Under the pieces are notes generated by a model. The model searched no databases. It was not told the DNA's origin and saw nothing but the letters and a program-made list of their open reading frames with translations. DNA of 64,000 nucleotides from Aquabacterium sp. (GTDB taxonomy: Bacteria; Pseudomonadota; Gammaproteobacteria; Burkholderiales; Burkholderiaceae_C). The translations under genes and the position numbers were made by a program. The DNA lies in the NCBI RefSeq assembly GCF_029946005.1, contig NZ_JAQSDR010000009.1:186001-250000 (forward strand). Reading direction: 5' to 3'. Below, piece after piece: positions 29,681-46,955 of the stretch (positions within the stretch are counted from its first letter, which is position 1; each line of letters begins with the position of its first letter).

Positions 29681-31942
29681 ATGAACACCCCTGCAAAGTC
29701 CCCACCGATCCAGACGCCTGACGCCCAAGTGACAGTGCTGGATGACGAAGTGGAAGCCGCGCAGTTCACCCGGTGGACATCCCTGGCCAATGGCCGACGC
29801 CTTGGCGAGTCTTCCTTGCGCATCGGCGGAATGCATTGCACGGCTTGCGCAGCGACCATCGAACAGGCACTTCAAGGCGTAACCGGCGTGACCGAGGTGC
29901 GAGTCAGCGCCGCAGGGCAGTGCGCCACCGTTTCCTGGGATGTTGAGCGGACCCGTCCTTCTGAACTCGTGCAGGCCATTGAGCGAGCAGGCTACCGCGC
30001 CACACCGGACACCGTGGCCGACGCGCGCGCCTTTCGCCTGAAAGAATCCAGGGATGCGCTGTGGCGCCTGTTCGTGGCGTCGTTTTGCGCCATGCAGGTG
30101 ATGATGCTGGCCACACCGTCGTATGTCAGCGCATCAGGCCAGCTCGAGCCCGACTTGAAGCAGCTGCTCGATTGGGGCAGTTGGCTGCTCACCCTGCCGG
30201 TGATGATCTTTGCCGCAGCCCCTTTCCTGAGTGGCGCATGGCGCTCATTGCGCAACCGCCGAATCGGCATGGATGTGCCAGCCGCCTTGGGCATGCTGGT
30301 GGCCTTCATCGCCAGCAGCGGCGCCACGTTCGACCCGGGTGGTGTGTTCGGTCGGGAGGTCTATTTTGATTCGCTGACCATGTTCATCAGCTTCCTGCTC
30401 GGGGGGCGATACCTGGAAATGCGGGCCCGTCACCACGCCGAGCGCTCGCTGGAAGACACCATCGGTCGGCTGCCAGAGATCGCTCTGCGCGAGAGCCCAG
30501 ATGGCAGCGTCATGGCCATCAGCGTGTTGCGCCTGAAGCGCGGCGACATCATCCGGGTGCCAGTGGGCGGGGCCTTCTGTGCTGACGGGATCGTGACCCA
30601 AGGCCAGACACGCGCGGATGAGTCGCTGCTGACCGGTGAATCAGCCCCGGTTGAGAAGACCGTGGGCGATGCCGTGGTGGCGGGGAGCCTGAATTTGGCC
30701 GCGCCGGTTGCCATGCGGGTCGAGCACGTGGGCGCAGACACCCGCTACGAAGCGATCGTCGCCATGATGCGCGATGCGCGCACGCAGCGCCCTGCATCGG
30801 TCACCGCCAGTGATCGCTGGGCAACGCCTTTCCTGTGGTCGATCCTGGTGCTGGCGGCCGCGGCTGCGGCAGTGTGGAGCGTGATTGACCCATCTCGGGC
30901 CATCTGGGTGGCCGTCTCCGTGCTGATCGTGACTTGTCCGTGCGCCTTGTCACTGGCGGCGCCCTCGGCCATGCTGTCGGCGGCGATGGCCATGGCCAAG
31001 CAAGGCCTGCTGTTGCGCCGGATCGAGGCCATTGAAGGCTTGGCGGGTATGCAGACCTTGTTCATCGACAAAACCGGCACCTTGACCGAAGCGCGGCGTC
31101 AGCGGGCCACGATGATCCGCACCGGCCCAGATGAACGTTGGACGGATGATGCGTTGCGCCAGCAGGCCGCGTCGCTCGCCGCGTGGTCGACACACCCGCT
31201 TGCCAAGGTTCTGGCGCAGGAAACGGCCAAAGCGACAGGGGTGTGGCATGGCCTGCGTGAAACACCCGGCCAAGGCATCGAAGGCTGCGCCAGCGATGGA
31301 TCGATCTGGCAACTGGGCCGGGCATCTCGCGCGGTGCCGGTGGCGGCGAATGATGGCCACGACGCTGAGACCTGGCTGAGCCGCGATGGTCAACCGGTGG
31401 CCTGCTTCCGGTTCACCGAGACCCTGCGCCCTGGCGCCATGGAGGCGGTCAGGGCCCTTGAGCAGGATGGCGTGAGTGTCATCTTGTTGTCGGGTGACAG
31501 CGCTGAGCGCGTCCACCGAGTGGGCCGCTTGCTGGGTCTGAATGACTGCCAAGGCGGCATGGCGCCGCAAGACAAGCTGACCGCCGTGCGAGAGGCTCAA
31601 GCGCGCGGCCAGCAGGTGGCGATGTTGGGTGATGGCATCAATGATGCGCCGGTTCTGGCCCAGGCCGACACCTCGATCGCCATGGGGGAGGGCGCGCAAA
31701 TTGCACGAGCCCAAGCCGACGGGGTGCTGGTCACCAATGACCTGCAGGACGTGGTTCGCGCACGCGCCCTGGCCAAGAAGACCTTGCGCGTGGTGCGCCA
31801 GAACTTCATCTGGGCGGCTTCCTACAACGCGGCTTGCGTGCCATTGGCCCTGATGGGTTGGTTGCCGCCATGGGCTGCGGGCCTGGGCATGGCCACCAGC
31901 TCACTGCTGGTCGTGCTCAACTCGCTGCGCCTCTCGCGCTGA
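29681..31942 (+). CDS. ccoI: CcoI-type copper-translocating P-type ATPase
   Basis: 753 residues. P1B-ATPase of the CcoI/FixI/CtpA group that exports copper for cbb3 oxidase assembly. N-terminal HMA domain with GGMHCTAC (Cys 53, 56). Eight membrane helices; CPC copper site in VTCPCALSLAAPSAM (near 418). DKTGTLTEA phosphorylation site (near 462); nucleotide domain with STHPLAK; hinge MLGDGINDAPVLAQAD. The neighbouring ccoS and ccoNOQP genes support the FixI-type assignment over a detoxifying CopA. Confidence 0.95.
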   Translation: MNTPAKSPPIQTPDAQVTVLDDEVEAAQFTRWTSLANGRRLGESSLRIGGMHCTACAATIEQALQGVTGVTEVRVSAAGQCATVSWDVERTRPSELVQAIERAGYRATPDTVADARAFRLKESRDALWRLFVASFCAMQVMMLATPSYVSASGQLEPDLKQLLDWGSWLLTLPVMIFAAAPFLSGAWRSLRNRRIGMDVPAALGMLVAFIASSGATFDPGGVFGREVYFDSLTMFISFLLGGRYLEMRARHHAERSLEDTIGRLPEIALRESPDGSVMAISVLRLKRGDIIRVPVGGAFCADGIVTQGQTRADESLLTGESAPVEKTVGDAVVAGSLNLAAPVAMRVEHVGADTRYEAIVAMMRDARTQRPASVTASDRWATPFLWSILVLAAAAAAVWSVIDPSRAIWVAVSVLIVTCPCALSLAAPSAMLSAAMAMAKQGLLLRRIEAIEGLAGMQTLFIDKTGTLTEARRQRATMIRTGPDERWTDDALRQQAASLAAWSTHPLAKVLAQETAKATGVWHGLRETPGQGIEGCASDGSIWQLGRASRAVPVAANDGHDAETWLSRDGQPVACFRFTETLRPGAMEAVRALEQDGVSVILLSGDSAERVHRVGRLLGLNDCQGGMAPQDKLTAVREAQARGQQVAMLGDGINDAPVLAQADTSIAMGEGAQIARAQADGVLVTNDLQDVVRARALAKKTLRVVRQNFIWAASYNAACVPLALMGWLPPWAAGLGMATSSLLVVLNSLRLSR

Positions 31943-31948
31943 CCCTGC

Positions 31949-32116
31949 ATGGACATCCTCTACCTGCTGATTCCCCTGTCGTCGGTGCTGGTGCTGGTCA
32001 TCTTGGGTGTTTTTGCGTGGGCTCTGTATTCCGGCCAATTTGATGACGTGGAGCAGCACGGCGAGCAAATTTTGGACGCCGCGCATGAGTCGACTGATTT
32101 GCATCAAGGTGACTGA
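31949..32116 (+). CDS. ccoS: CcoS, cbb3 oxidase maturation protein
   Basis: 55 residues. Family opening MDILYLLIPLSSVLVL, one membrane helix (about 4-26) and the conserved ALYSGQFDDVEQHGEQIL tail. CcoS is needed for heme b and CuB insertion into CcoN in Rhodobacter. It starts six bases after ccoI, the normal arrangement. Confidence 0.95.
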   Translation: MDILYLLIPLSSVLVLVILGVFAWALYSGQFDDVEQHGEQILDAAHESTDLHQGD

Positions 32117-32166
32117 GCACGCCCCAACGAATAATCTCAGTTGAGCAAGGAAATCAGAGGCGCGTA

Positions 32167-32358
32167 ATGGCTGACAACACACGAACAATCATGGGCCCAC
32201 CCACACTCCCGTGGTGGCGCATCCCCATGGTGTGGCTGGTGATTGGCGGCCCGGCCTTGGTCGTGGTCGCTGGCTTCATCACCTTGGCCCTCGCCATCAA
32301 TGGCGGCGACCAGCCTGTCCACAACCCAGGATCTGCCTCGCAGGCGTTTCGTCGCTGA
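32167..32358 (+). CDS. Short FixH/CcoH-like membrane protein
   Basis: 63 residues. A single membrane helix (about 17-43) within PWWRIPMVWLVIGGPALVVVAGF resembles the N-terminal segment of FixH/CcoH. The periplasmic domain that makes FixH about 150-170 residues is missing. Such short forms may suffice to stabilise cbb3 as CcoH does; this is an inference. It lies between ccoS and the SafE-like gene. AAGGAAATC upstream is a weak ribosome site. Confidence 0.8.
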   Translation: MADNTRTIMGPPTLPWWRIPMVWLVIGGPALVVVAGFITLALAINGGDQPVHNPGSASQAFRR

Positions 32359-32368
32359 CACCAACACC

Positions 32369-33049
32369 ATGCAGTGGCCGCTGATCCTCGCTGGCTTGGC
32401 CATGGGCGTGGCCGCCACACCGCATTGCGCCGTCATGTGCGCGGCGCCTTGCGCGGCGGTGACGCGTGGAGACAAGCACAGCGCGACCAGTTTTCAAGTG
32501 GGGCGCCTGATCAGCTACATGCTCGTGGGCGCACTGGCCGCGTACAGCGTGTCCACTCTCGGCGTCTGGAGCGAAACAGTGCCTGCGCTGCGTCCGCTGT
32601 GGACGCTTTTGCACCTGGCTTGCCTGGGGTTGGGTCTGTGGTGGTTGTTCACGGGCGAGCAACCCACCTGGATGAGGCGCGACGACACCGTGTCCGTGAT
32701 CCGCATGCCAGGACGCCATTCACCCGTGATGCGCGCAGGCCTCACGGGCTTGGCATGGGCGGCCTGGCCCTGCGCCGCACTGCAAGGGGCGCTGGTGCTG
32801 GCGGCGCTGGCCAACACGCCATTGGCGGGTGCCTTGGTGATGGGCGCCTTCTCGGTGGCGTCCATGCCGGGCCTGCTGCTCGCTCCCTGGGCGTGGAAGC
32901 GCTGGCAGGCGCATCACGGCACCACCATTTCTCCCGGACAGCTGTCGCTGCACGGTTTTCGCATCGCCGGGATCGGCTTGGTGCTCGCCTCTGGCTGGGC
33001 CTTGACACACGACCTCTGGCAACGCTTTGCAACCTGGTGCACCACATGA
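32369..33049 (+). CDS. SafE/TauE-like (UreH-type) membrane protein
   Basis: 226 residues from ATG 32369. Six membrane segments; the N-terminus QWPLILAGLAMGVAATPHCAVMCAAPCAA carries the PHCxxMCxxxC motif of the DsbD-like/UreH-2 'sulfite exporter' proteins found in cbb3 loci. The conserved Cys and His suggest copper or redox handling during oxidase assembly. The real function is untested in this family branch. It overlaps the following small frame by four bases. Confidence 0.88.
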   Translation: MQWPLILAGLAMGVAATPHCAVMCAAPCAAVTRGDKHSATSFQVGRLISYMLVGALAAYSVSTLGVWSETVPALRPLWTLLHLACLGLGLWWLFTGEQPTWMRRDDTVSVIRMPGRHSPVMRAGLTGLAWAAWPCAALQGALVLAALANTPLAGALVMGAFSVASMPGLLLAPWAWKRWQAHHGTTISPGQLSLHGFRIAGIGLVLASGWALTHDLWQRFATWCTT

Positions 33050-33201
33050 TGATCAGAGCCCTTGCCTTCGTCCTCGCCACCTTGGGCGCCACTGGCGTTT
33101 TGGTGGCCGCCGGGCTGAATGAACACGATGAGCGCGCGGCCGCTCTGAGTCTTGATCAGGGTCAAGGCTCAAACGGGGCCTTTGCCCAACAATCCCGGTA
33201 G
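33046..33201 (+). CDS. Small putative membrane-anchored protein, 51 aa
   Basis: Starts at ATG 33046, overlapping the SafE-like stop (ATGA). One hydrophobic helix (about 4-22, [19 protein letters not shown]), then a polar tail. Its 3' end contains the FNR box at 33152-33165, so it lies over the ccoNO promoter. The perfect ATGA coupling favours expression; small size and lack of a known family keep confidence low. Confidence 0.5.
33152..33165 (+). promoter_or_regulatory. FNR box upstream of ccoNO
   Basis: TTGATCAGGGTCAA fits TTGAT-N4-ATCAA with one mismatch (GTCAA). The centre is 29.5 bases before AACAAT (33188-33193), a 4/6 match to the -10 consensus, giving class-II spacing with a start near 33200. 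It lies 80 bases upstream of the ccoNO ATG and predicts anaerobic/microaerobic activation of the oxidase operon. Confidence 0.85.
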
Positions 33202-33244
33202 ACCCTTCAATCTCAAGCACGAAAACAACGAAAGGACGCGCCGA

Positions 33245-35293
33245 ATGGCCGCTCTAAAATCTGCCGTGGTCAACTATGACGACTGGCCTGTTCGACAGTT
33301 CGCATTGGCGGCGGTGCTGTGGGGCGTGGTTGGCATGACCGTCGGCGTTCTGATCGCTGCTCAACTGGCTTGGCCCGACCTGACTGCGAACATCCCGTGG
33401 CTCAGCTATGGGCGCCTCAGGCCACTGCACACCAACGCGGTGATCTTCGCCTTTGGCGGCTGCGCGCTGTTTGCCACGTCTTACCATGTGGCCCAGCGCA
33501 CGGGTCAAACCCGATTGTTCGCACCGGCCTTGGCCAAGTTCACCTTCTGGGGATGGCAGGCCGTCATCGTGGCGGCTGCGATCACACTCCCGATGGGCTA
33601 CACGCAAGGCAAGGAATACGCCGAGCTGGAATGGCCCATCGACGTTCTGATCACGGTGGTGTGGGTCTCTTACGCTATCGTGTTCTTCGGCACCATCGCC
33701 AAACGGCAAGTTCGGCACATCTACGTGGCCAACTGGTTCTTTGGCGCGTTCATCCTGGCCGTGGCCCTCTTGCACGTGGTCAACAGCGCCGTCATGCCCG
33801 TGAGCCTGTGGAAGAGCTACTCGGCTTACGCCGGTGTTCAAGACGCGATGGTGCAATGGTGGTACGGCCACAATGCCGTCGGCTTCTTCCTCACCGCAGG
33901 CTTCCTGGGCATGATGTATTACTACATCCCCAAGCAGGCCGAGCGGCCGGTGTACTCGTACCGCCTGTCGATCGTGCACTTCTGGGCACTGATCTTCACC
34001 TACATGTGGGCTGGTCCGCACCACCTGCACTACACCGCCTTGCCCGACTGGGCGCAATCGGTGGGCATGGTGTTCTCGCTGGTGCTTTTAGCCCCCAGCT
34101 GGGGCGGCATGATCAACGGTGTGATGACCTTGTCGGGCGCCTGGTACAAGCTGCGCGACGACCCCATCCTCAAGTTCCTGATCGTGGCCTTGTCTTTCTA
34201 TGGCATGGCCACCTTCGAAGGCCCGATGATGTCCATCAAGACCGTCAATGCGCTGTCGCATTACACGGACTGGACAGTGGGCCACGTGCACGCCGGGGCC
34301 TTGGGCTGGGTTGGTTTCATCACCATGGGATCGCTTTACTACCTGATCCCCCGCATGTTCGGCCGGACCACCATGTTCAGCGTCAAGGCGATCGAGATCC
34401 ACTTCTGGATCGCGACACTGGGCGTCGTCCTGTACATCGCGGCGATGTGGATCGCCGGCGTGATGCAGGGCTTGATGTGGCGTGCGGTGAATCCCGACGG
34501 CACCTTGGTTTACAGCTTCATTGAAAGTGTGAAGGCCACATTCCCGTTCTATGTGGTTCGCCTGAGTGGTGGTTTGCTGTACCTCAGCGGCATGTTGCTG
34601 ATGGCCTGGAACGTGGTCATGACCGTGCGGGCAGGCAAACCCGCCGTCGCGAAGGTTCCTGCTACCAAGCATGAAGGGCACGTCAACCCGGCGCGGGGAC
34701 ACGAAAAAATCGAGACCAACAATGGCCTGATGATCGTCCTGATCCTGTTGGTGGTGGCCGTGGGCGGCTTGGTTGAGATCGTGCCCCTGTTCTTCCAACG
34801 CTCCACCACTGAAGCCGTGGCGGGTGTCAAACCCTACACCGCCTTGCAACTCGTGGGCCGTGATATCTACCTGCGTGAAGGTTGCTACAACTGCCACTCA
34901 CAGATGATTCGCGCCTTGCAGTCCGAGACATTGCGGTATGGGCACTACTCCTTGGCAGGCGAGTTCGTTTATGACCGGCCATTCCAATGGGGCAGCAAGC
35001 GCACCGGGCCGGACCTGGCACGCGTTGGTGGCAAGTACAGCGATGAATGGCACCGCATTCACCTGACCAGCCCACGCGACCTGGTCCCTGAGTCCAACAT
35101 GGCAGCCTACCCATGGCTGGCCACCAAGCCAGTCGATCCGGCCAGCGTGCCGCCTCGCTTGACGGCCATGAAGCGCCTGGGCGTGCCTTACACGCAAGCC
35201 GAAGTCGATGCGTCGTCCGAAGCCGTGCAGGGCAAGACTGAGCTGGAAGCGCTCATCGCCTACCTGCAGGTGTTGGGTACCCAACTGAAGTAA
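33245..35293 (+). CDS. ccoNO: Fused cbb3 oxidase subunits I and II (CcoN-CcoO)
   Basis: 682 residues in one uninterrupted frame. ATG 33245 has AAAGGA ten bases upstream. Residues about 1-480 are CcoN: 12 membrane helices with heme/CuB histidines ([58 protein letters not shown]). Residues about 483-682 are CcoO: one membrane anchor then a c-type heme site CYNCH at 547-551 and a distal Met (PESNM). CcoN and CcoO are normally separate genes; here a hydrophilic linker ([20 protein letters not shown]) joins them. Terminal O2 reductase with high oxygen affinity in the inner membrane. Followed by ccoQ, ccoP, ccoG. Confidence 0.96.
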
Positions 35294-35307
35294 CAAGGAG
35301 ACCCCAC

Positions 35308-35460
35308 ATGGACCTCAATGAGTTACGCGTCCTGGTCACCATGGCCAGCTTCGTCAGCTTTGGCGGCATCGCTGTCTGGGCCTGCTGGCCCGGGCATCGC
35401 GCTGATTTTGACGCCGCAGCACAACTTCCCTTCAGCGACGAGGAGCCCGTTCGTGAGTGA
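35308..35460 (+). CDS. ccoQ: CcoQ, small cbb3 oxidase subunit
   Basis: 50 residues. One membrane helix (about 8-27) and a short acidic cytoplasmic tail with FDAAAQLPFSDEE, typical of CcoQ. AAGGAG precedes the ATG by seven bases. CcoQ stabilises the oxidase complex. Its end overlaps the ccoP GTG start by eight bases. Confidence 0.93.
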   Translation: MDLNELRVLVTMASFVSFGGIAVWACWPGHRADFDAAAQLPFSDEEPVRE

Positions 35461-36376
35461 TTTCATCAGCAGTGGATGGTCCTACTACGTTGCCGCAGCC
35501 ACCATCATCGGCCTTCTGGCCTGCCTGGCCTTGTTGGTCATCGCAGCCAGGCGCAAGGTCATTCCTGGCGACAACACCACCGGCCATGTCTGGGACGAAG
35601 ACCTGCGAGAACTGAACAACCCCCTGCCGCGCTGGTGGATGGGGCTGTTTGTGGGCACGGTGATTTTCGCCTTTGCCTACCTCGCGCTCTATCCCGGACT
35701 GGGCAGCACACGTGGCTACTTTGATTGGAGCACCAATGGTCAGCACGCCGCCGAAGTGGAAGCAGCCCGCGCGCTGAGTGCCCCGCTTTATGCCAAGTTC
35801 GCAGGTTTGCCCGCCAACCAGTTGGCGAAAGATCCTCAGGCCATGGGGATTGGCGAGCGCCTGTTCGTCAACAACTGTGCCACTTGCCATGGATCGGATG
35901 CCCGCGGCAGCAAAGGCTTTCCCGACTTGACCGACAACGATTGGCTTCACGGTGGCGCCGTCGAGAAGATCGAAGAGACCATCACGAAGGGGCGGATTGG
36001 CATGATGCCCCCCATGGGCGGGGCAGTGGGCACTGAAGCCGATGCGCGCAACCTGGCCCACTATGTCTTGAGTCTGTCTGGCGGTGCACACAACAACATC
36101 GCGGCACAATTGGGTCGGTCATCATTTTCGGCGTGTGCGGCTTGTCATGGCATGGATGGCAAGGGCAACCAGGCCCTCGGCGCTCCCAATCTGACCGACA
36201 AGGTTTGGTTGCATGGCTGGGGTGAAGAGGCCGTCATGAGCATGATCAAGAATGGCAAAACCAACCAGATGCCAGCCCATGGCACCCGTTTGACCGCCGA
36301 GCAGATCCATGTCCTGGCGGCGTATGTCTGGCAGATGTCCCAACCCAAGGTGGAGAGCGTTGCCCTGCAACGGTGA
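35453..36376 (+). CDS. ccoP: CcoP, diheme c-type subunit of cbb3 oxidase
   Basis: 307 residues from GTG 35453 (GAGGAG eight bases upstream). An N-terminal membrane helix (about 10-32) and the conserved TTGHVWDEDLRELNNPLPRWW block with a second helix. Two cytochrome c domains follow: CATCH at 142-146 and CAACH at 228-232, with GMMPPM and QMPAHG axial Met regions. It passes electrons from soluble cytochrome c to CcoO/CcoN. Confidence 0.96.
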   Translation: MSDFISSGWSYYVAAATIIGLLACLALLVIAARRKVIPGDNTTGHVWDEDLRELNNPLPRWWMGLFVGTVIFAFAYLALYPGLGSTRGYFDWSTNGQHAAEVEAARALSAPLYAKFAGLPANQLAKDPQAMGIGERLFVNNCATCHGSDARGSKGFPDLTDNDWLHGGAVEKIEETITKGRIGMMPPMGGAVGTEADARNLAHYVLSLSGGAHNNIAAQLGRSSFSACAACHGMDGKGNQALGAPNLTDKVWLHGWGEEAVMSMIKNGKTNQMPAHGTRLTAEQIHVLAAYVWQMSQPKVESVALQR

Positions 36377-36383
36377 ACCAACC

Positions 36384-37868
36384 ATGACTGGACCGGATAA
36401 GAAAGCGACGTCGGCGCGGGTCATACCGATCGTTCCGGTACCTAACGCCTCGGCTGATGGCGAGGCGACACAACTCGTGTCCCTGTATGAAAAGCAGCCC
36501 AAGATCCACCCACGCGCCGTTCACGGCTGGTTTGCTGCGTGGCGCTGGACTTTGGTGTGGTTGACCCAGGCCATTTTCTATGGATTGGCCTGGCTGCCCT
36601 GGAACGGCCGTCAGGCCTTGCTGTTTGACCTGACCGCCCGGCGCTTCTTCATCTTCGATCTGGTGCTGTACCCGCAGGACTTCATTTACCTGACGGGGTT
36701 GTTGGTCATTTGCGCCTTTGCGCTGTTCCTGTTCACCGCCGTGGCCGGGCGCCTTTGGTGCGGCTATGCCTGCCCTCAAACGGTGTACACCGAAATATTC
36801 CTTTGGGTCGAGCGCCAGTTCGAGGGTGACCGGAGTCAACGCCTCAAGCTGGATGCAGGCCCCTGGGGATGGCGCAAGGTTTGGCGCAAGTTTGGCAAGC
36901 ACTTCACCTGGGGTGTCATTGCCTTGTGGACGGGCTTCACCTTCGTGGGCTACTTCACACCCATCAGAACGCTGGCCGCAGAAGTCACCCAGTTCAACCT
37001 GGGCCCCTGGGAAACCTTCTGGGTGCTGTTCTATGGGCTGGCCACGTATGGCAACGCTGGCTACTTGCGTGAACAGGTGTGCAAGTACATGTGCCCCTAT
37101 GCGCGCTTTCAGAGCGCCATGTTTGACCACGACACGCTGGTCATCAGCTATGACCAGGCGCGTGGCGACCCTCGCGGAACCCGCGCCCGCAGTGCCGACC
37201 TCCAGCAACTGGGCCTGGGCGATTGCATCGACTGCGGCTTGTGTGTGCAAGTGTGCCCAACGGGCATCGACATCCGAGATGGCCTGCAGTACGAGTGCAT
37301 CGGCTGCGCCGCCTGCATCGACGTCTGCGACAGCGTCATGGACAAGATGCGCTACCCACGCGGCCTGATCAAGTACGCCACGCAGTCGGGCATGGAACAG
37401 AAGCTCACTTCGCGCCAAATGATGGGCCGCATGCTGCGGCCTCGTATCCTCATTTACAGCGGCATCCTGGTGACCATCTCACTGGCGCTGGTGGCCAGCC
37501 TGGCCCTGAAAAGTCCGTTCAAGGTTGACGTGGTGAGAGACCGAGGGTCTTTGGCCCGCATTGCAGGGGAGGGCAACATTGAAAACGTTTACCGCCTGCA
37601 ACTGATGAACGCCACGGAACAAACCCAGCGCCTGCAGGTGCAGGTCAGTGGTTTGCCTGGGGCCAAGGTCACTGGCGTGTCGGTGATCGAGGTGGAGGCC
37701 ACCGAAGCCCGCTGGTTCCCAGTCGTCGTCCAGGTGCCGCAAGAATCTGCCCACCAACTGAGCCCTGGCGCACACCCGATTCAGTTTCGAATCGAACGCC
37801 TGGCTGAAGACGGGCAGGGCAGCAACGCCAACGTGGTGGAAAAGTCCACCTTCGTCATTCCTCGTTGA
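36384..37868 (+). CDS. ccoG: CcoG (RdxA/FixG), cbb3 oxidase accessory ferredoxin-like protein
   Basis: 494 residues from ATG 36384. Several membrane helices in the first 240 residues, with WCGYACPQTVYTE. Two [4Fe-4S] motifs: CIDCGLCVQVCPTG and CIGCAACIDVCDSVM. The C-terminal immunoglobulin-like FixG domain (about 390-494) is periplasmic. CcoG reduces Cu(II) for oxidase assembly in Rhodobacter. It lies seven bases after ccoP, the usual place. Confidence 0.95.
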   Translation: MTGPDKKATSARVIPIVPVPNASADGEATQLVSLYEKQPKIHPRAVHGWFAAWRWTLVWLTQAIFYGLAWLPWNGRQALLFDLTARRFFIFDLVLYPQDFIYLTGLLVICAFALFLFTAVAGRLWCGYACPQTVYTEIFLWVERQFEGDRSQRLKLDAGPWGWRKVWRKFGKHFTWGVIALWTGFTFVGYFTPIRTLAAEVTQFNLGPWETFWVLFYGLATYGNAGYLREQVCKYMCPYARFQSAMFDHDTLVISYDQARGDPRGTRARSADLQQLGLGDCIDCGLCVQVCPTGIDIRDGLQYECIGCAACIDVCDSVMDKMRYPRGLIKYATQSGMEQKLTSRQMMGRMLRPRILIYSGILVTISLALVASLALKSPFKVDVVRDRGSLARIAGEGNIENVYRLQLMNATEQTQRLQVQVSGLPGAKVTGVSVIEVEATEARWFPVVVQVPQESAHQLSPGAHPIQFRIERLAEDGQGSNANVVEKSTFVIPR

Positions 37869-37877
37869 AAGCCGTTC

Positions 37878-39245
37878 ATGAACAGTTCGTCGCCTGTGGA
37901 GTTGGACTCGCGATTGCTCCAACGCCTGGACAAGGGTGGGCCGCGCTACACCTCCTACCCCACGGCAGACCGCTTCAATGAACGCTTTCAGCCGCAGGAC
38001 TATGAACGGGCGCTGAAGAAGCGGGCCGAAGGCCTGGCGGCCGGTCTGACCATCGCGCCCTTGTCCGTGTATGTGCATTTGCCGTTCTGTGAATCGGTGT
38101 GCTACTACTGCGCCTGCAACAAGATCGTCACGCGCGATCACAGCCGCGCCACCCAGTACCTTGATGCGATCGAGCTGGAAGTCGATCTGCACTTGCGGGC
38201 ATGGCGGCACCCCCAGCAGGCCTCGCAACTCCACCTGGGTGGTGGCACGCCCACCTTCCTGAGCGACCAGGAACTCCGCCGCTTGATGGCCATCCTGCGC
38301 CATGCGGTCGAGTTCTTACCTGGTGCTGAAATGTCTGTCGAGGTGGATCCGCGAACCGTGACGCCACAACGATTGGCCAATCTGGCTGAAATGGGGTTCA
38401 ACCGGATCAGCTTTGGCGTGCAAGACTTCGACGCACAGGTTCAAGCCGCCGTGCACCGCGTTCAACCTTTTGAGTCTGTTCAAGGCTTGATGGAAAGCGC
38501 CCGGTCGTTGGGCTATGGCTCCATCAACACGGACCTGATCTATGGCTTGCCCAAGCAAACGCCCGAGTCGTTTGCCAGAACCCTTGGACAGGTTGCGCAA
38601 CTGAGGCCTGACCGCATCGCGCTGTATGGCTATGCCCACATGCCGGATCGCTTCAAGCCGCAGCGCCGCATCCTGACACCTGATCTGCCCACACAAGCGC
38701 AGCGGGTGAGCATGCTCGAACAGGCGATCAAGCGCTTCAGGGCCGAAGGCTATGACTACATCGGCATGGACCACTTCGCTTTGCCAGACGACTCGTTGGC
38801 CGTCGCCAAGCGTCAGGGCAGGCTGCAGCGCAATTTTCAAGGCTACAGCACGCAACCCGACTGCGACATTGTGGCGTTGGGGGTGTCCGCCATCGGGCGC
38901 GTCGGTAACAGCTATTCGCAGAACGCCAAGACGCTGGACAAGTACCAGGCCGCTCTGGTGCAAGGGCGTTTCCCCACGGAGAAAGGCATTTGGTTGTCCA
39001 ACGATGACCTCATTCGCCGCACCGTGGTCATGGCATTGATGTGCCAAGGCCGACTGGATTTCGACGCGATTGAAAGCACCTGCGGCATCACGGTGTCCGA
39101 ATACTTCAGGCCAGAACTGGCTCGATTGCAAGGGATGGTGGGCGAGGGCATGCTGGTGCTTGAGCCTCGCGCCGTGCAGCTGACCCCCTTGGGGTGGCAC
39201 TTTGTGCGGAGCGTGTCCATGGTGTTCGACCGGTACCTGCAATGA
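37878..39245 (+). CDS. hemN: Oxygen-independent coproporphyrinogen III oxidase HemN
   Basis: 455 residues, radical-SAM enzyme for anaerobic heme synthesis. The family opening GPRYTSYPTADRF and radical-SAM motif CESVCYYCACNK (near 70-80) are intact. The HLGGGTPTFLS SAM-binding stretch and C-terminal HemN domain are present. Its place directly after ccoG (nine-base gap) ties heme supply to the cbb3 oxidase, under the FNR-controlled promoter upstream of ccoNO. Confidence 0.96.
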   Translation: MNSSSPVELDSRLLQRLDKGGPRYTSYPTADRFNERFQPQDYERALKKRAEGLAAGLTIAPLSVYVHLPFCESVCYYCACNKIVTRDHSRATQYLDAIELEVDLHLRAWRHPQQASQLHLGGGTPTFLSDQELRRLMAILRHAVEFLPGAEMSVEVDPRTVTPQRLANLAEMGFNRISFGVQDFDAQVQAAVHRVQPFESVQGLMESARSLGYGSINTDLIYGLPKQTPESFARTLGQVAQLRPDRIALYGYAHMPDRFKPQRRILTPDLPTQAQRVSMLEQAIKRFRAEGYDYIGMDHFALPDDSLAVAKRQGRLQRNFQGYSTQPDCDIVALGVSAIGRVGNSYSQNAKTLDKYQAALVQGRFPTEKGIWLSNDDLIRRTVVMALMCQGRLDFDAIESTCGITVSEYFRPELARLQGMVGEGMLVLEPRAVQLTPLGWHFVRSVSMVFDRYLQ

Positions 39246-39323
39246 CAACAGTGGCTCGCATGCCACTCATTGACAGCGGCTTCTGAAAACACTGATCATG
39301 CCCTTCTACTGGAGGGCTGGCCT

Positions 39324-42074
39324 GTGGATCAAGTCGTTTCGTTTCTGGGGCGCAATGGTTACCTGCCGCATGGCTACTGTTTTACATGGCAGCCGGAGCT
39401 TTTGTGGTCCATGGTGGTCGCGGACCTGGTCATCGCAGCCGCGTACTTCTCGATCCCACTGGCCATGCTGAGTTTCGTCCGAAAACGTGGGGAATCCTCC
39501 ACGAACTGGTTGGTCGGGCTGTTTAGCGCCTTCATCTTCGCTTGTGGCATCACGCACGTGGCCGATGTGATCACCATCTGGCAACCGTTCTATGGCTTGC
39601 AAGCCATCAGCAAAGTGGTGACGGCCCTCATTTCCTTGGTCACCGCCATTGCCCTGTGGCCGCTGATTCCCAAGGCACTCAAGATCCCTTCGGTCGCGCA
39701 GTTGCAGTCGAGCATTGAGTCGCTCGAAGCTGAGGTTAAACAACGGCGTGCCGCTGAAGAAAACCTCTCAGACACCCAAGAAGCCCTGGTCATCGCGCTG
39801 GCCAGCATTGGCGCCGGATTCATGGCCACCGACCGCCAGGGCCGTGTCAGCCGCATGAATGCGGTGGCCGAACAAGTCACCGGCTGGAGCCAGGACCAAG
39901 CATTGGGCCGACCGATGTCCGAGATTTTTAACCGCCAAGACCAGCCCGACTCAAACCTGGGCCGCAACCCCGTTGACCTCATGATCGGCATGGGGGCCAC
40001 CATTGACACCGTGCATCAGGTGGTGGCCATCCGCCCTGACCAAACGCGCGTCTCCCTGGAAGTGCAAGCCTCGCTGACCTATTCGCCAGACCGAGAGGTG
40101 AGGGGGCTGGCCATGGTTTTCAGAGACATGACGCAGCTGAATGAGGCCGAGGTTGGAGCCAATCAGTTGGCCGCCATTGTCGACTCGTCTTATGACGCCA
40201 TCATTGGCAAAACCCTGGACGGGCGCATCACCAGCTGGAACAGGGGAGCGCAGTCCCTGTTTGGCTACACGGCGCAAGAAGCCATTGGCCAACCAATCCA
40301 GATGTTGTTGCCGCCCGATCGCGCCGCTGAAGAAATGGCCATCCTGGCCGAGCTGTCGGCCGGTGTTCAAATCGCCCCCTTTAACACGGTTCGCCGGGCC
40401 AAAAATGGCGACCTGGTGGACGTCTCCGTCACCATCTCGCCTATCAGAGACGCGCACGGCCAGATCATTGGCGCCTCCAAGATTGCACGAGACATCACCC
40501 AACAAAAACGCGTTGAGCAGATGCACCTGGAGGCCGAGAGGCTTGAGGCCGAAAACCGCCAGATTCACGCAGCGAGTCGACTCAAAAGTGAGTTTCTGGC
40601 CAACATGTCGCATGAGTTGAGGACACCACTCAATGCCATCATTGGCTTCGCGGGCTTGCTCCATGGCGACGCGGTCCCGGCTCAATCGCCCAAGCATCGT
40701 GAGTTCCTGGGCTACATCGAAACCAGCGGCCAGCACCTGCTGCAGTTGATCAACGATGTGCTGGACCTGTCCAAGGTTGAGGCTGGCAAGCTGGAGTTTT
40801 ACCCGGAGCCGGTGGACCTGGCACTGCTGGTCAAAGAAGTCACCACGATCCTTCAGACTTCGGCCAACCGACAAGGGGTGACCGTTTGCGCAGAGATCGA
40901 CGAGAGCATTGGCGAGCTTCACATTGACCCGGCGCGGCTCAAGCAAGTGCTCTACAACTACCTGTCCAATGCCATCAAGTTCACGCGGCCTGGTGGGCAG
41001 GTCACTTTGCGGGCAATGCCGCAGGGAAGGGCCCATTTCCGGATTGAAGTTGAAGACACCGGCGTCGGGATTGCCGAAGCGGATTTGTCAAAGCTCTTTG
41101 TCGAGTTTCGTCAGCTTGACAGTGGCTACACCAAACGGCACCAAGGCACCGGATTGGGCCTGGCATTGACACGCAGGCTGGTCCAGGCCCAGGGCGGACA
41201 CATTGGGGTGCGCAGCACGCTGGGCGTGGGCAGCGTGTTCCACCTGGTCCTGCGTCGGCACAATGCTTCCAGCGAGGCATTGCCCAGCCCGGCCTCTGGC
41301 AGCGGACATCGCTTTCTGGTGATCACGGACAACGCGGACGAGCAACACCGCATGACCGACGCGCTCACGGCCGTGGGCGTTGAGGTGGACCATGCATCCA
41401 CCGGCGACCAAGCTGTGGCGCGTGCTCGCAACCACACCTATGACGCGATCACGCTGGACCTGATCTTGTCGGACTGCCGCGGGCTGGAAGCGCTGTCAGC
41501 CATTCGCAGCAAGGGGCCCAGTCGGCAATCGCCCGTGGTGGCCGTGACCATGAGGACGGCATCCTCATTGGCCGCCAACTTCCCGGTGACCGATGTGCTG
41601 AGCAAGCCGCTTGAAACCCGACACCTCGGCATGGTGTTGGGCAATTTGGGCTTGACCCAGCGTCGCGGCGCGCGCGTCATGGTGGTGGACGACGATCAAC
41701 TGGCGCTGGACTTGATGGAGGCCACCTTGGGCAAGCTCGGCATTGAGTTCATTGGCTTGTTGGACGGCCGCCGGGCACTTGCCGAAATGGCTGAGCATCG
41801 GCCCGACGCCATCATCCTTGACCTGATGATGCCCGGCATGGACGGGTTTGAAGTCCTGGACGCACTGCGTCAGCATTCGCAATGGAAACACATACCAGTG
41901 TTCATCTGGACCTGCATGCTGTTGACCCAGGACGAGTACGCGCACTTGGCAAATTCTGCCTTGGCGATCTTGAACAAAGGCGGCGGAAGCCTGGCGGCGT
42001 TGCTGGACGAACTGCGGCGCTGGAGATGTCCGGCGGCCATGGCCACGGCGACATCTGATGATGGGGAGGCGTGA
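39324..42074 (+). CDS. Hybrid histidine kinase with ethylene-receptor-like membrane domain
   Basis: 916 residues from GTG 39324, chosen because GGAGG lies eight bases upstream; TTG 39270 would add 18. The N-terminal 3-helix domain (about 20-120) matches plant ETR1. All seven ETR1 ethylene-binding residues (Asp25, Tyr32, Ile35, Pro36, Ile62, Cys65, His69) are found here as Asp34, Tyr41, Ile44, Pro45, Ile71, Cys74 and His78 with the same spacing (AYFSIP, FACGITH). Cys and His bind Cu(I) in ETR1. Then two PAS domains (about 150-275, 280-405), HisKA H-box MSHELRTPLNAIIGF, HATPase (EDTGVGIAEADL, GTGLGLALTRRL) and two receivers (about 650-770, 780-900). It follows hemN and overlaps the next receiver gene. 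The ligand may be ethylene, but another copper-bound gas is possible. Confidence 0.92.
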   Translation: MDQVVSFLGRNGYLPHGYCFTWQPELLWSMVVADLVIAAAYFSIPLAMLSFVRKRGESSTNWLVGLFSAFIFACGITHVADVITIWQPFYGLQAISKVVTALISLVTAIALWPLIPKALKIPSVAQLQSSIESLEAEVKQRRAAEENLSDTQEALVIALASIGAGFMATDRQGRVSRMNAVAEQVTGWSQDQALGRPMSEIFNRQDQPDSNLGRNPVDLMIGMGATIDTVHQVVAIRPDQTRVSLEVQASLTYSPDREVRGLAMVFRDMTQLNEAEVGANQLAAIVDSSYDAIIGKTLDGRITSWNRGAQSLFGYTAQEAIGQPIQMLLPPDRAAEEMAILAELSAGVQIAPFNTVRRAKNGDLVDVSVTISPIRDAHGQIIGASKIARDITQQKRVEQMHLEAERLEAENRQIHAASRLKSEFLANMSHELRTPLNAIIGFAGLLHGDAVPAQSPKHREFLGYIETSGQHLLQLINDVLDLSKVEAGKLEFYPEPVDLALLVKEVTTILQTSANRQGVTVCAEIDESIGELHIDPARLKQVLYNYLSNAIKFTRPGGQVTLRAMPQGRAHFRIEVEDTGVGIAEADLSKLFVEFRQLDSGYTKRHQGTGLGLALTRRLVQAQGGHIGVRSTLGVGSVFHLVLRRHNASSEALPSPASGSGHRFLVITDNADEQHRMTDALTAVGVEVDHASTGDQAVARARNHTYDAITLDLILSDCRGLEALSAIRSKGPSRQSPVVAVTMRTASSLAANFPVTDVLSKPLETRHLGMVLGNLGLTQRRGARVMVVDDDQLALDLMEATLGKLGIEFIGLLDGRRALAEMAEHRPDAIILDLMMPGMDGFEVLDALRQHSQWKHIPVFIWTCMLLTQDEYAHLANSALAILNKGGGSLAALLDELRRWRCPAAMATATSDDGEA

Positions 42075-42475
42075 TGACGGCCCGGCGAATCATGATCATC
42101 GACGACAACCACATGAACCTTGAGCTGGTGTCCTACATGCTGGATGCCGGCGGATTTGTCGTGAAGATGGAAAGTGGCGCTGCCACGGCCTTGGACAGCA
42201 TCCCGACATTCCGGCCAGACCTGATCTTGATGGACATCCAGTTGCCCGACATGGACGGCTTGGAGTTGACCCAGCGGCTGAAGGGCAATCCAGCCACCGC
42301 TGACATCGTGATCGTGGCGTTCACAGCCTATGCCATGAAAGGCGACGAGGCCAAGATGCTGGCCGCAGGGTGCGATGGCTACATTTCAAAGCCCATCAAT
42401 GTGGCGACCTTCGTTTCGCAGGTGGAGGCATGTCTTTCTGTGCCGTCATCTGCTGGCGAGCCAAGAATAGCTTAG
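42074..42475 (+). CDS. Stand-alone receiver response regulator
   Basis: 133 residues from ATG 42074, which shares its A with the TGA of the upstream hybrid kinase; GGGGAGG precedes it. REC domain only: IMIIDDNHMN, LILMDIQLPDMDG, VAFTAYAMKGDE, GYISKPIN. It probably receives phosphate from the ethylene-receptor-like kinase. It is very similar in plan to the lone receiver at 23135-23509. Confidence 0.93.
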   Translation: MTARRIMIIDDNHMNLELVSYMLDAGGFVVKMESGAATALDSIPTFRPDLILMDIQLPDMDGLELTQRLKGNPATADIVIVAFTAYAMKGDEAKMLAAGCDGYISKPINVATFVSQVEACLSVPSSAGEPRIA

Positions 42476-42494: not shown

Positions 42495-42660
42495 TCAGTT
42501 TCTTGCCCTGCCTGTGAGCCGCAAAATGGCCGCCATCAGGTCATTGGGACGCAGGGGTTTGGCGCAATAGGCGTTGAATCCGGCAGCCAGGGCCAGTGCC
42601 TCATCCTGCGGGCGTGCGAAAGCGGTGAGGGCGATCGCGGGCAGGTGGGTGCTGCTTTCA
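42495..42660 (-). pseudogene. Out-of-frame C-terminal piece of the hybrid kinase receiver
   Basis: Reading +1 relative to the frame of the kinase at 42658-44514, this piece encodes the rest of a receiver domain: STHLPAIALTAFARPQDEA, then GFNAYCAKPLRPNDL, and stops at 42495. It supplies the switch Thr and conserved Lys missing from the truncated kinase. The break is at a run of five A (T at 42661-42665 on the plus strand), where four would keep the frame. Confidence 0.85.
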
Positions 42661-44514
42661 TTTTTCAAGCCGCCGCACCTCGCGGATCAGGGCGTGGCCA
42701 TCCTTGCCTGGCATGCCGATGTCGCTGACCAGCACATGGGGTCTGGCTTGATGGATGAAGCGCAAGCCCTCGTCATAGCCATCCGCCGACACCACCTCAG
42801 CGCCCCGGTCTCGCAGGATCATGCACAGGATGTCGCGCGCCTCTTGGTCGTCATCGACGATCACGATCGACAGGCCGTTCAGGCTTGAGGGCGGGATGCT
42901 GATTTCTGCCACTTCGCTCTCGTCCACCAAGGGCATGTGATCGGAGTCCGTCCGTTCGAATGCGGTCGTTGGATTGGTGGGAAGCGTCACCGTGAAGGTA
43001 GCGCCTTTGCCCACGCCTTCGCTGGCCGCCCGAATAGTGCCGCCATGCAACTCCACCAGTTGCTTCACGATGGACAGGCCCAGCCCCAGGCCACCGTGGT
43101 AGCGGTTGCTGGCCGAATCGCTTTGGGTGAAGCGGTCAAACAAATAAGGCAGGAACTCGGACTTGATGCCTTGGCCCAGGTCCTGCACCTTGAGCGTCAA
43201 CTCCGCGTCAGTCTGCAACAGCTGGACCGTGATCTGTCCGCCGGGCTCCGAGAACTTGATGGCATTGCTCAGCAGGTTCCAGATGATCTGCTGCAAGCGG
43301 GATGGGTCAGCGGTCAGCGGGCGAGTGGCTTGTTCGACATCGACTTGGGCAGTCAGCGACTTGTCTCGCATCAGGGCGCCCAGGGTCGTCACGGCCGAGC
43401 TCACCAGTTCGGCCACGTCCACGCTCTCCAGTTCCAGGCGCAGTTTGCCCAGGTCCATGCGCGACACATCCAGGATGTCCGAGATCAGTCGGCGCTGCGT
43501 TTCAGCGTTGCGGGCAATGGCGTTGAGGCCTCGTGTCAGGTTGTTGACCCCTTCCGGGTGCTTCAGCACGTGGACCCAGCTCAGGATGGCGTTGAGTGGT
43601 GTGCGCAGTTCGTGCGACAGCACTGCGATGAATTCGTCCTTGGAGCGGCTAATGCGTTCAGCGGCGACGCGCGCGGCCTGTTCGCGCTCAAGCAATTGTT
43701 CGCGTTGCTGGGTCAGGGCGATGCGCTCGGAAATGTCGGTGGCCATGGCCATGGTGAGGCCTTGCTCGACGTGGGCCGACAGGCTCCACGCCAGGTGCAG
43801 TTGTTCTCCCTGGGCATTCAACAGCGGGAACTCACCGCGCCACATGCTTTGCTGATGCTGACTCAGGTAACCGGAGATTCTCTCAGCCCATTCGGGCGGT
43901 GCCAGGTCCACCACACGCTGGCCGACCACGGCGGGCTGTTGACGTCCCAACATCGTCAGCATGGCCGGGTTGACCTCGACGAAGTAGCCCTCGGTGTTGA
44001 TCAGACAGATGCCGCCCACTGCCTGGTTATAGATGGCACGAAAGCGGGCCTCACTGCTGCGCATGGCGTCTTCTGCATCGCGCGTGCGGCCCAGGGTCTG
44101 GATGGTGGCAATGAGCAGCGAGGGCTCAGCCGGGTGCGTCATGTAAGCGTCGGCGCCCGAGTAAAGGCCACGCACTTTGTCCTCGTTGTCCACATAGGCT
44201 GCCGACAAGTAGACCACCGGCAGGTGGGTGGTCTCCGGACGGGCCCGCAAGGCCTTGCAGACTTCGAAGCCATTGATGTCGGGCAGGTGCACGTCCAGCA
44301 CCACGGCTGCCAAGCCCGGGTGGGAGCGTTGCAAGGCTTCGCCACCCGTGCAAGCTTCGAGTGTTCGAAAACCTGCGGCTCGCAAGATGCGGGCTGTGGA
44401 ATAGCGTGTCGCCGGGTTATCGTCGACGACCAACACTTCCGGCATGCCCGAAGGGTCTGGTGCGAGATCCTGCGGATCGTTAACGGCACTCATGGTCGGG
44501 GGGGCGGTTGGCAT
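42658..44514 (-). CDS. Hybrid histidine kinase REC-PAS-HisKA-HATPase-REC, truncated by frameshift
   Basis: 618 residues. N-terminal receiver (25-145; VLVVDDNPATR, AVVLDVHLPDING), PAS (about 160-275), H-box VLSHELRTPLNAILS near 310, HATPase (LLSNAIKFSEPGG, DLGQGIKSEF, GLGLGLSIVKQL) and a C-terminal receiver (555-618; IVIVDDDQEAR, VLVSDIGMPGKDG) that stops early at VRRLEK. The remaining 54 residues continue in another frame (42495-42660), so the intact protein would be about 672 residues. Last gene of the stressosome operon and probable output kinase. The start may be MPT at 44514 or an internal Met. Confidence 0.88.
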   Translation of the reverse strand: MPTAPPTMSAVNDPQDLAPDPSGMPEVLVVDDNPATRYSTARILRAAGFRTLEACTGGEALQRSHPGLAAVVLDVHLPDINGFEVCKALRARPETTHLPVVYLSAAYVDNEDKVRGLYSGADAYMTHPAEPSLLIATIQTLGRTRDAEDAMRSSEARFRAIYNQAVGGICLINTEGYFVEVNPAMLTMLGRQQPAVVGQRVVDLAPPEWAERISGYLSQHQQSMWRGEFPLLNAQGEQLHLAWSLSAHVEQGLTMAMATDISERIALTQQREQLLEREQAARVAAERISRSKDEFIAVLSHELRTPLNAILSWVHVLKHPEGVNNLTRGLNAIARNAETQRRLISDILDVSRMDLGKLRLELESVDVAELVSSAVTTLGALMRDKSLTAQVDVEQATRPLTADPSRLQQIIWNLLSNAIKFSEPGGQITVQLLQTDAELTLKVQDLGQGIKSEFLPYLFDRFTQSDSASNRYHGGLGLGLSIVKQLVELHGGTIRAASEGVGKGATFTVTLPTNPTTAFERTDSDHMPLVDESEVAEISIPPSSLNGLSIVIVDDDQEARDILCMILRDRGAEVVSADGYDEGLRFIHQARPHVLVSDIGMPGKDGHALIREVRRLEK

Positions 44515-45129
44515 TTGTCGTCCTGACCAGGCAGGCGGGGCGGAAGAATCACGGAGAAGGTGGAGCCGCTGCCCAGCTCGCTTTGCAGACTGACCGTGCC
44601 GCCCAGCAACTCGGCCAGGCGCTTGCTGAGCGACAGCCCCAGGCCGGTGCCGCGCAGGCGTTTCTGGATGGGGGAATCAACCTGGGTGAAGTCTTGGAAG
44701 ATCGCGTGGTGGAACTCTGGCGAAATGCCTATGCCGGTGTCGCACACCGCAAACGTGACCGTGCCTTCTTCATCGCGGCGTGCGGACACGCAGGTCGTCG
44801 ACCATTTCCGAGAACTCGGCCGAAGTGCTCTGGATGAACTTGACCTGCACCTCCTGCTCAGCCGTCAAGGGGCCATCGATGCGGTCGATCAGCAGCCGAG
44901 AAATGCTCTGGATCGAGCCGATCGGGGTGCGGAATTCGTGGCTCATGTAAGCCAGAAATTGGCTTTTCAATTCGGTGGCCCGCTGCAGTTCTTGGGCCTG
45001 CGAATCAAGTTCGGCGTAAAGCGCCAGCACGCCACGGTTGGTTTCTTCAAGTTCCGCGCGCAGGTCTTCCAGTTCGAGGTTCTTGGCTTGCAATTCGGAC
45101 TGCAAGTGTTCGAATAGCTGTTCGGTCAT
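44490..45129 (-). pseudogene. Histidine kinase gene with internal deletion and frameshift
   Basis: From ATG 45129 (overlapping the previous stop as TGATG) the first part encodes a coiled coil (LFEHLQSELQAKNLELEDL) and a HisKA domain with FLAYMSHEFRTPIGSIQSI, ending MVDDL. The sequence then jumps to the end of the HATPase, in another frame: VSARRDEEG, VCDTGIGISPEF, GTGLGLSLSKRL, stop at 44490. The usual LDLAKIEAGR segment and the N-box ATP-binding part, about 70 residues in related kinases, are missing. The product cannot bind ATP and is non-functional as written. Codon use matches the neighbours, so the event looks recent or artefactual. Confidence 0.82.
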
Positions 45130-46166
45130 CAGGCGCCTCGCCGTTTCAGGACCACCACCGTGGCATCGTCGAGGCCACGGCAATGTTCGCGGACCAGCCA
45201 TCCAGCCACCACGGTGGGGTGATGTTGCAAGATTCCCTGAGCATTGTCCAGGTCCCAGCGTGTGGTCAGGCCGTCGGAATGCAGCACCAGCAGGGCGTAA
45301 GGCGGCCATTCTTGCTTCACGTCCTGCAGTCGACGGATCTGTATGCCCACAGTGCCATGCTGCGATGCGAGCGACTTGTCCCTCACACCCGAAATCAGCC
45401 TGCCCGCGATGTTCCCGGCACCCGAGAAGGTCAAGACGTTGTCGTCCATGTTCAGTTGCGCCATGAGCACCGCCGCACCACGGGTGGCCCGAAGCATCTG
45501 ATGCATGCGCTCCACCGCTTGGCTAGGCGGGATGAAGGGCGCGTCTTTGAACACGGTCACCGCAGCGTTCGAAGCCTCGAAAGCCAACGGGCCATGACCC
45601 AGCCCGTCGGCCACAATGATGGATGCCTGCGACCCCTGCTGAACAACGGCCCAGGCATCCCCACAGACGAATTCACCGGGCGCCGCCAGCGCAACTGAGC
45701 CCTGGACAAAGCTTGAAGGATTCGCTGGCACCAACGGGGTTTCACCGGCGTCTACCTTGGCCGCCACACGCGACATGATCACCGTGCCGGCAGGCTGCGA
45801 TGAAAAGAGATCGAACTCCGTGGAAAGTCGCCTGACCGCGCCCAGCCCGGAGCCTGGCGTGTCGCCGGTGGGGTAGCCATCAGCCATGCAAGCCCGAACA
45901 TTGGGGATGCCGGGGCCGTGATCCAGCGACAGGATCTCGACCATGGCTTGGCCATCATCGCCTTCGACCGCACCGACCAGCAGCCGACCCTTCTGCGCAT
46001 GGCGGACCAGGTTGGTGCCCAGTTCGGTGGCGACCAAAGCCGCGCGGCCGGTGGCCACTTCGTCGAAACCAAGTTGCTCGGCCACTCTGACCGCAGCTCG
46101 CCGGGCATGGCCAACCTGGCTGGCATCGTGCACGTCAATGGCAAGGTGGCAAGGTACTTCTAGCAT
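45129..46166 (-). CDS. RsbX-like PP2C phosphatase fused to an RsbT/W-type ATPase domain
   Basis: 345 residues from ATG 46166. The N-terminal HATPase (about 1-130) is anti-sigma-kinase-like: ALVATELGTNLVRHA is the N-box, LDHGPGIPNV the G1 box and GSGLGAVRRLS the lid. The C-terminal SpoIIE/PP2C domain (about 150-345) has GDAW, VADGLGHGPLAFEAS, LHSDGLTTRWD and a DDATVVV ending. In Bacillus, RsbX resets the stressosome by dephosphorylating RsbR/RsbS; the extra ATPase domain here is not part of B. subtilis RsbX. It lies between rsbT and two kinase genes. Confidence 0.88.
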   Translation of the reverse strand: MLEVPCHLAIDVHDASQVGHARRAAVRVAEQLGFDEVATGRAALVATELGTNLVRHAQKGRLLVGAVEGDDGQAMVEILSLDHGPGIPNVRACMADGYPTGDTPGSGLGAVRRLSTEFDLFSSQPAGTVIMSRVAAKVDAGETPLVPANPSSFVQGSVALAAPGEFVCGDAWAVVQQGSQASIIVADGLGHGPLAFEASNAAVTVFKDAPFIPPSQAVERMHQMLRATRGAAVLMAQLNMDDNVLTFSGAGNIAGRLISGVRDKSLASQHGTVGIQIRRLQDVKQEWPPYALLVLHSDGLTTRWDLDNAQGILQHHPTVVAGWLVREHCRGLDDATVVVLKRRGA

Positions 46167-46173
46167 GAGCACA

Positions 46174-46578
46174 TCACTTCCAGCGCGTGATGCTGACGCA
46201 GGTGCCTTCACCCACGACGGATCTGATCTCGAACTCGTTCACCAGGCGTCGGCTGCCCGTCAGGCCCATGCCCATGCCTTTGCCCGAGGTCCAGCCATCG
46301 GTCAAAGCCAGGTCCATGTCGGGGATGCCGGGGCCCTGGTCCTCGAAGTGCAGGCGCAGGCCATTGCGAAGGCCGTCTTGCAGTAGTTCCCAGCGCATCT
46401 CGCCGCCACCGCCATACACCACGGTGTTACGCGACAGCTCGCTGGCCGCCGTGATCATCTTGGTCTGGTCCACCAGCGAGAACTTGAGCTCTTGGGCCAG
46501 CTTACGCACCGTCTGACGGCTCAGCACGATGTCCTGCTCGGTGAGTAGCTGCATCGAGCCCTTAGAGGTCGCTGTCAC
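46174..46578 (-). CDS. rsbT: RsbT-like switch kinase
   Basis: 134 residues from GTG 46578, which has AAGGAG seven bases upstream; ATG 46554 is possible. GHKL serine kinase: SEQDIVLxRQ-type start (TEQDIVLSRQTVRKLAQ), N-box ASELSRNTVVYGGG, G1 EDQGPGIPDMD and G2 GMGMGLTGSRRLVNEF. RsbT phosphorylates RsbS and RsbR and is released to act on downstream partners. It overlaps the rsbS end by 17 bases. Confidence 0.92.
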   Translation of the reverse strand: MTATSKGSMQLLTEQDIVLSRQTVRKLAQELKFSLVDQTKMITAASELSRNTVVYGGGGEMRWELLQDGLRNGLRLHFEDQGPGIPDMDLALTDGWTSGKGMGMGLTGSRRLVNEFEIRSVVGEGTCVSITRWK

Positions 46579-46942: not shown

Positions 46943-46955
46943 GGTGATTGCAGTC

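Follow-up and report, generated by a model that had tools for sequence, protein, structure and literature searches.

A hybrid histidine kinase encoded in the genome of Aquabacterium sp. is probably a bacterial ethylene-receptor-type protein, in which a signal from a gas bound to Cu(I) would be passed by phosphorelay to a lone receiver protein. This reading, put forward in a preliminary description of the DNA, is supported by the family assignment, the binding residues, the helix predictions and the similarity to AzoEtr1 of Azospirillum brasilense. The signal is likely to be ethylene or another copper-bound small ligand and, judging from the sequence, ethylene acting through Cu(I) would probably be the ligand. 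The case that the protein adds to an already known kind, the bacterial ethylene-receptor kinases, is convincing. Throughout the text, the window means the whole stretch of 64,000 nucleotides that was analysed, and the features discussed are collected in Table 1.

Kinase gene and domain organisation

The N-terminus of the kinase is a three-helix ETR1_N domain (Pfam, 3e-35), an assignment which is not due to chance, as its score of 120.8 bits far exceeds the cut-off of 27, and which is the single ETR1_N match in the source genome. It is followed, in this order, by two PAS domains, HisKA, HATPase_c and two receivers, the HisKA and HATPase_c pair providing the output of a histidine kinase. Pfam therefore recovered all the components previously listed: two PAS domains, a full kinase, two receivers and an adjacent lone receiver, whose ATG overlaps the kinase stop codon and suggests translational coupling. 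No GAF domain, the element that defines plant ETR1 receptors, was found in the kinase at E 0.001, PAS domains standing where Arabidopsis ETR1 carries GAF. Against solved structures, a sequence search of the kinase returned chance-level matches only, and a fold search with its model returned nothing below E 0.001.

A longer reading frame is available from a TTG at 39270, which forms the first letters of the promoter-like TTGACA. The GTG at 39324 is preferred, since GGAGGG lies 7 bases 5' of it and both elements are kept in the loci of four aligned relatives (two of these, L014 and L146, are identical, so that the four perhaps represent three organisms).

Table 1. Position and nature of the features discussed (window coordinates unless a locus is named)
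Feature	Position	Strand	Remarks
ETR1_N hybrid histidine kinase	39324..42074	+	916 aa from GTG
PHGxCxxW motif, residues 15-22 (His16, Cys19, Trp22)	39366..39389	+	Predicted short helix 16-21 before TM1 (AlphaFold2)
TM helix 1, residues 24-55, with D34, Y41, I44, P45	39393..39488	+	AlphaFold2
TM helix 2, residues 61-86, with I71, C74, H78 (ETR1 copper site)	39504..39581	+	AlphaFold2
TM helix 3, residues 90-111, with K97 (ETR1 K91, AzoEtr1 K98)	39591..39656	+	Alignment, AlphaFold2, available part of PMC11819568
Second of two PAS domains	40161..40502	+	Approximate limits; Pfam PAS folds, 2 stretches
Kinase core, HisKA + HATPase_c	40584..41258	+	Pfam
Second C-terminal receiver (first one 5' of it)	41676..41942	+	Response_reg, 2 stretches
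Lone receiver protein gene	42074..42475	+	ATG overlaps kinase stop codon; GTG 42071 also possible
Neighbouring block: P-type metal ATPase, DsbD-like, CcoNO fusion, CcoP, CcoG, HemN	29681..39245	+	Among examined loci, closest relatives only
Hairpin between hemN and kinase	39250..39267		Stem largely conserved
Promoter-like TTGACA-18-GATCAT	39270..39299	+	Hexamers identical in four aligned relatives' loci
Maribacter phage Colly_1 ETR1_N 'hypothetical protein'	L214:3932-4801		Directly upstream of endolysin
Maribacter phage Molly_1 ETR1_N 'hypothetical protein'	L218:3932-4801		Directly upstream of endolysin
Stand-alone ETR1_N membrane proteins on viral contigs	L222, L223, L224, L228, L233, L235, L240, L245, L255, L257

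Binding residues and predicted helices

Numbered from GTG 39324, the kinase carries D34, Y41, I44, P45, I71, C74 and H78, plus K97. Pfam recognises the Arabidopsis ETR1 sequence used for comparison as ETR1_N (6e-34); its alignment with the kinase, at 34% identity, is gap-free from D34 to H78, and bears out the earlier observation that the seven ethylene-binding residues of ETR1 recur at a constant offset of nine. In an AlphaFold2 model based on 55 sequences (mean pLDDT 90), three helices are predicted; hydropathy and the model give three membrane helices with the binding residues on helices 1 and 2, and the model agrees with the gap-free alignment in placing these residues at equivalent helix positions. 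The layout matches that of published ETR1 models, in which each monomer carries one Cu(I) at the dimer interface, close to C65 and H69 (PMC6586836).

Conservation was followed in 73 distinct loci, obtained from 77 domain-bearing loci by taking five duplicates out and the window in, and falling into 54 sequence groups at 75% domain identity. C74 and G75 are present in 73 of the 73 and H78 in 70, while the full set of seven residues occurs in 55. The family is thus not uniform, at least one of the seven being missing in 18 loci.

Known receptors and distribution

AzoEtr1 is reported to bind ethylene in the available part of PMC11819568. Read from plasmid ABSP7_p1, it is an ORF of 525 aa followed by a receiver-like ORF, with the motif PHGVC; it shares with the window kinase the ETR1_N domain, the seven residues, the helix-3 Lys, PHGxC, PAS, kinase and a receiver gene next door, but it is shorter, has one PAS and no attached receivers, and its domain is 45% identical. 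Synechocystis SynEtr1, compared by description only, is also a bacterial receptor with an ethylene-binding domain, but it is a light receptor as well (same part of PMC11819568). Arabidopsis ETR1, in the sequence used here, has the same binding residues and three-helix layout, but no PHGxC motif, and its linker from helix 2 to helix 3 is three residues longer.

ETR1_N was found above the cut-off in 12 of 61 relatives and in 25 of 399, 28 of 398 and 10 of 274 genomes of the order, phylum and class samples, respectively, all four counts including the own genome, as well as in 28 of 385 genomes in the class of G704; these samples overlap. Its distribution is patchy, since it occurs in 8 of the 36 other genomes of the genus sample and in none of 11 listed genomes from other genera of the family (order sample). 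The nearest named relatives belong to Aquabacterium, Leptothrix and other Burkholderiales, and, according to a review, ethylene-receptor-type proteins are predicted in many proteobacteria and cyanobacteria (PMC7700396).

A receiver-like protein occupies position +1 or position +2 in 19 of the 73 loci (15 of 54 groups; 20 of 73 by a second method), and none was found just downstream in 54. Moreover, an unbiased clustering of gene neighbours, with ORFs called by a simple rule of length and similarity instead of a gene finder, returned a recurrent receiver family just downstream, the other families being scattered in position.

The N-terminal PHGxCxxW motif

Residues 15-22 of the kinase read PHGYCFTW and lie just outside, N-terminal of, the Pfam domain. 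Among the 73 loci, H16 is retained in 71, G17 in 72, C19 in 70 and W22 in 73; H16 and C19 occur jointly in 70, the same frequency as C74 with H78. In a set of 108 unique ETR1_N domains, weak ones included, H16 and/or C19 was lost in 8 of the 9 domains without C74 or H78 vs 4 of the 99 that retain both (Fisher p 1.2e-8, shared ancestry ignored), and the 103 domains above 100 bits gave a co-loss table of 6/1/2/94 (p 1.3e-7). The exceptions are L077, L206, L080 and L209, with C74/H78 and without the H16/C19 pair, and L078, with the pair and without H78; L080, L081 and L209 sit on very long branches, so that their membership is doubtful, and the start of L206 looks altered. On a tree whose bootstrap had not settled, the losses occur at scattered places and in several cases beside intact relatives, some of the forks having only moderate support: L051, L213 and L208 stand next to the intact L054, L190 and L177, respectively, and L078/L079 sit inside a clade whose six other members are intact.

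These sequence patterns suggest that H16 and C19 serve the copper site, a role in copper entry or as an extra ligand being the simplest reading; from the topology, the motif should lie on the outer membrane side, near the helix-2 end that holds H78. The seven better-scoring copper-lost proteins keep H16 in 2 and C19 in 2, W22 in 5, G17 in 6, and F70, W86, A101 and L134 in all 7. P45, I71 and T107 likewise survive in no more than 2, so that the pattern is one of joint functional decay and not of metal binding by H16/C19; P15, I37, Y41, T100 and L119 are lost nearly as often. Furthermore, since plant ETR1, in the Arabidopsis sequence used, does without PHGxC, ethylene binding in itself does not require the motif. 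A literature search for PHGxCxxW gave no matches, which is weak evidence, as literal strings only were used.

Genomic neighbourhood

The preliminary description had the gene following hemN and lying a few genes after a copper exporter, and took these copper and cbb3 neighbours as bearing on its function. HemN is indeed directly upstream and a heavy-metal P-type ATPase six genes upstream; the ATPase of cbb3 clusters is usually CcoI, which serves the oxidase and is not a detoxifying exporter. Up to 20 kb around the ETR1_N matches was searched with the ATPase, DsbD-like, CcoNO, CcoP (named from sequence and place only), CcoG, HemN and other proteins of the window (tblastn, E 1e-10, 30% coverage), the P-type ATPase being the sole copper-gene query. 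The block was found at 5 of the 77 loci, that is at 4 of the 73 distinct ones, which count as one of the 54 groups on account of the 85% domain identity among them; 0.36 to 0.54 groups would be expected by chance for a 30-kb target and 54 independent groups, and a neighbour could be missed at loci cut by contig ends (e.g. L016, L020, L021, L026, L142). Among the loci examined, the arrangement is confined to one close group and was not seen in the other 53, and the conserved linkage that would mark a cbb3 regulatory system was not found. An operon with cbb3 as a general link was rejected, since one group in 54 is about chance and a conserved hairpin and promoter-like site lie between.

At E 1e-60, hemN was detected in 39 of 41 genus genomes, and the type present in the window (at least 85% identity) in four, in all of which the hemN match is followed by the kinase domain at a distance of 81 to 84 bases. 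A further 26 hemN loci of the genus were inspected; they have no kinase within up to 1.5 kb and an FNR-like gene there instead. Besides the own genome, none in the order sample (399) gave the window-type hemN at E 1e-200, the best four first-look candidates being scored in most genomes. Both results indicate that this distinct cbb3-hemN block and the kinase occur together in one small lineage only. A promoter scan of the region gave 3 sites vs 2.6 in shuffles; FNR-like sites with up to one mismatch numbered 8 in the window vs 1.0 expected. One of them (one mismatch), at 33152, marks the 5' edge of the ccoNO ORF, and the kinase has none immediately ahead of it. Among the literature matches listed for ethylene receptors, none mentions 'cbb3', which does not prove that such a link has gone unreported. 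Thus, the cbb3 cluster is probably not part of the kinase mechanism, and the copper/cbb3 setting should not serve as evidence of kinase function.

Some other features of the region may be recorded. At 33152-35293, CcoN and CcoO are fused in a single cbb3 oxidase protein (COX1 plus FixO), and at 29143-29676, just before the metal ATPase, a 177-aa protein matches the carbamoyltransferase N-terminal family PF02729 (36.5 bits), the match being to that N-terminal domain only. Downstream of the kinase, on the reverse strand, a dense run at 42658-47819 of hybrid kinase, HATPase/SpoIIE-like, HATPase, STAS and RsbRD-STAS genes resembles an Rsb-type partner-switching or stressosome module.

ETR1_N proteins in phages

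Among 50,697 phage records searched, eight matched, all of them Maribacter phages. Their 289-aa protein (two were read) scores 60 and 61 bits for ETR1_N vs the cut-off of 27, keeps the Cys and the His, and shows, on inspection by eye, Asn in place of D34 and Ser in place of P45. The directly following gene is an annotated endolysin, and the protein is a candidate holin or lysis-timing protein. In the available part of the paper on these phages (PMC8776804), the only lysis gene given for Molly is an amidase and membrane-helix proteins are described near the lysins of that phage set; the word 'ethylene' is absent from its main text. In a viral-structure library, the best match to the window model was a 289-aa protein (E 2.9e-5), probably the Maribacter phage one.

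In viral contigs, two pattern scans and one protein scan gave 40 loci, some of them duplicates and cut or broken copies, of which 32 score at least 40 bits for the domain. Ten of the stand-alone proteins, 127-196 aa in length, were selected, and all exceed the Pfam cut-off. One of the patterns demands both Cys and His, whose presence in its loci is thus not independent; the L255, L257 and Maribacter proteins, found without it, all have both. Of 30 chosen neighbour proteins, 18 match nothing and three match lysis families: an endolysin after the protein of L222, a holin before that of L235 and a weak endolysin match near that of L236. Terminase, portal and tail genes adjoin the domain in L237/L240 and L255, so that these contigs at least are phage DNA; the L224 neighbours (DUF72, RF-1) are not phage hallmarks. 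The literature matches listed for ETR1_N in phages are nearly all phage-and-holin papers, which does not prove that the domain has gone unreported there.

Proposed mechanism and alternatives

In the mechanism we propose, one Cu(I) would be held at C74/H78 within the kinase dimer, where a small unsaturated gas, most likely ethylene, would bind the copper. Binding would shift the helices and change kinase activity. From the receivers, phosphate would then reach the lone receiver and other outputs, with an HPt protein encoded elsewhere probably acting as the go-between; the source genome has 14 HPt matches. ACC deaminase, the only ethylene-related gene tested, was not found in the host genome, and the results show no tie of the kinase to plants or to the metabolism of ethylene. 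The true input could instead be a different ligand, copper itself or the PAS domains.

One reading, which we hold to be rather unlikely, is that copper is bound by the domain while the signal sensed in the cell is some other small molecule or the copper state itself, ethylene binding being incidental: the domain occurs in many bacteria and phage contigs with no ethylene context seen and H16/C19 track the copper pair, yet both AzoEtr1 and SynEtr1 are reported to function as receptors for ethylene (PMC11819568). We give little credence to the membrane domain being a mere anchor below PAS domains that do the sensing; both PAS domains are strong, but a mere anchor would hardly retain polar metal ligands, and C74 and G75 are identical in 73 of the 73 loci and H78 in 70.

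A partnership of the kinase with the cbb3 oxidase, in which it would sense copper supply or copper-bound O2, CO or NO and tune respiration while the adjacent ATPase loads its copper, is equally improbable. It would account for the order ATPase-DsbD-ccoNO-ccoP-ccoG-hemN before the kinase in three named-contig relatives (85-97% protein identity), for the kinase standing behind hemN in all four genus genomes with this hemN type, and for the FNR-like site by ccoNO, and a copper transfer from RAN1 to ETR1 has been proposed (available part of PMC12586476). However, the block is near the domain in a single group, against about 0.4-0.5 groups by chance, a conserved promoter-like site that follows a hairpin belongs to the kinase alone, with no FNR-like match just before the gene, and none of the 26 other hemN loci inspected in the genus has the kinase within up to 1.5 kb. 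The ethylene-receptor-type kinase is the reading we retain.

Significance

The window kinase adds a well-preserved hybrid-kinase receptor for a burkholderial lineage, with a misleading neighbourhood separated from the real evidence. The His16/Cys19 pair bears on the way in which ethylene receptors of bacteria acquire or retain their copper, a question shared with plants. More tentatively, and as a possibility we rate below even, ETR1_N may be a portable Cu(I) membrane switch, of which the window kinase would be one wiring: in bacteria the outward His16-Cys19 would help to load or complete the copper site, whereas phages would use stand-alone versions, some in lysis cassettes, where copper or a gas could time lysis. 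The phage proteins would represent use of the domain without a kinase.
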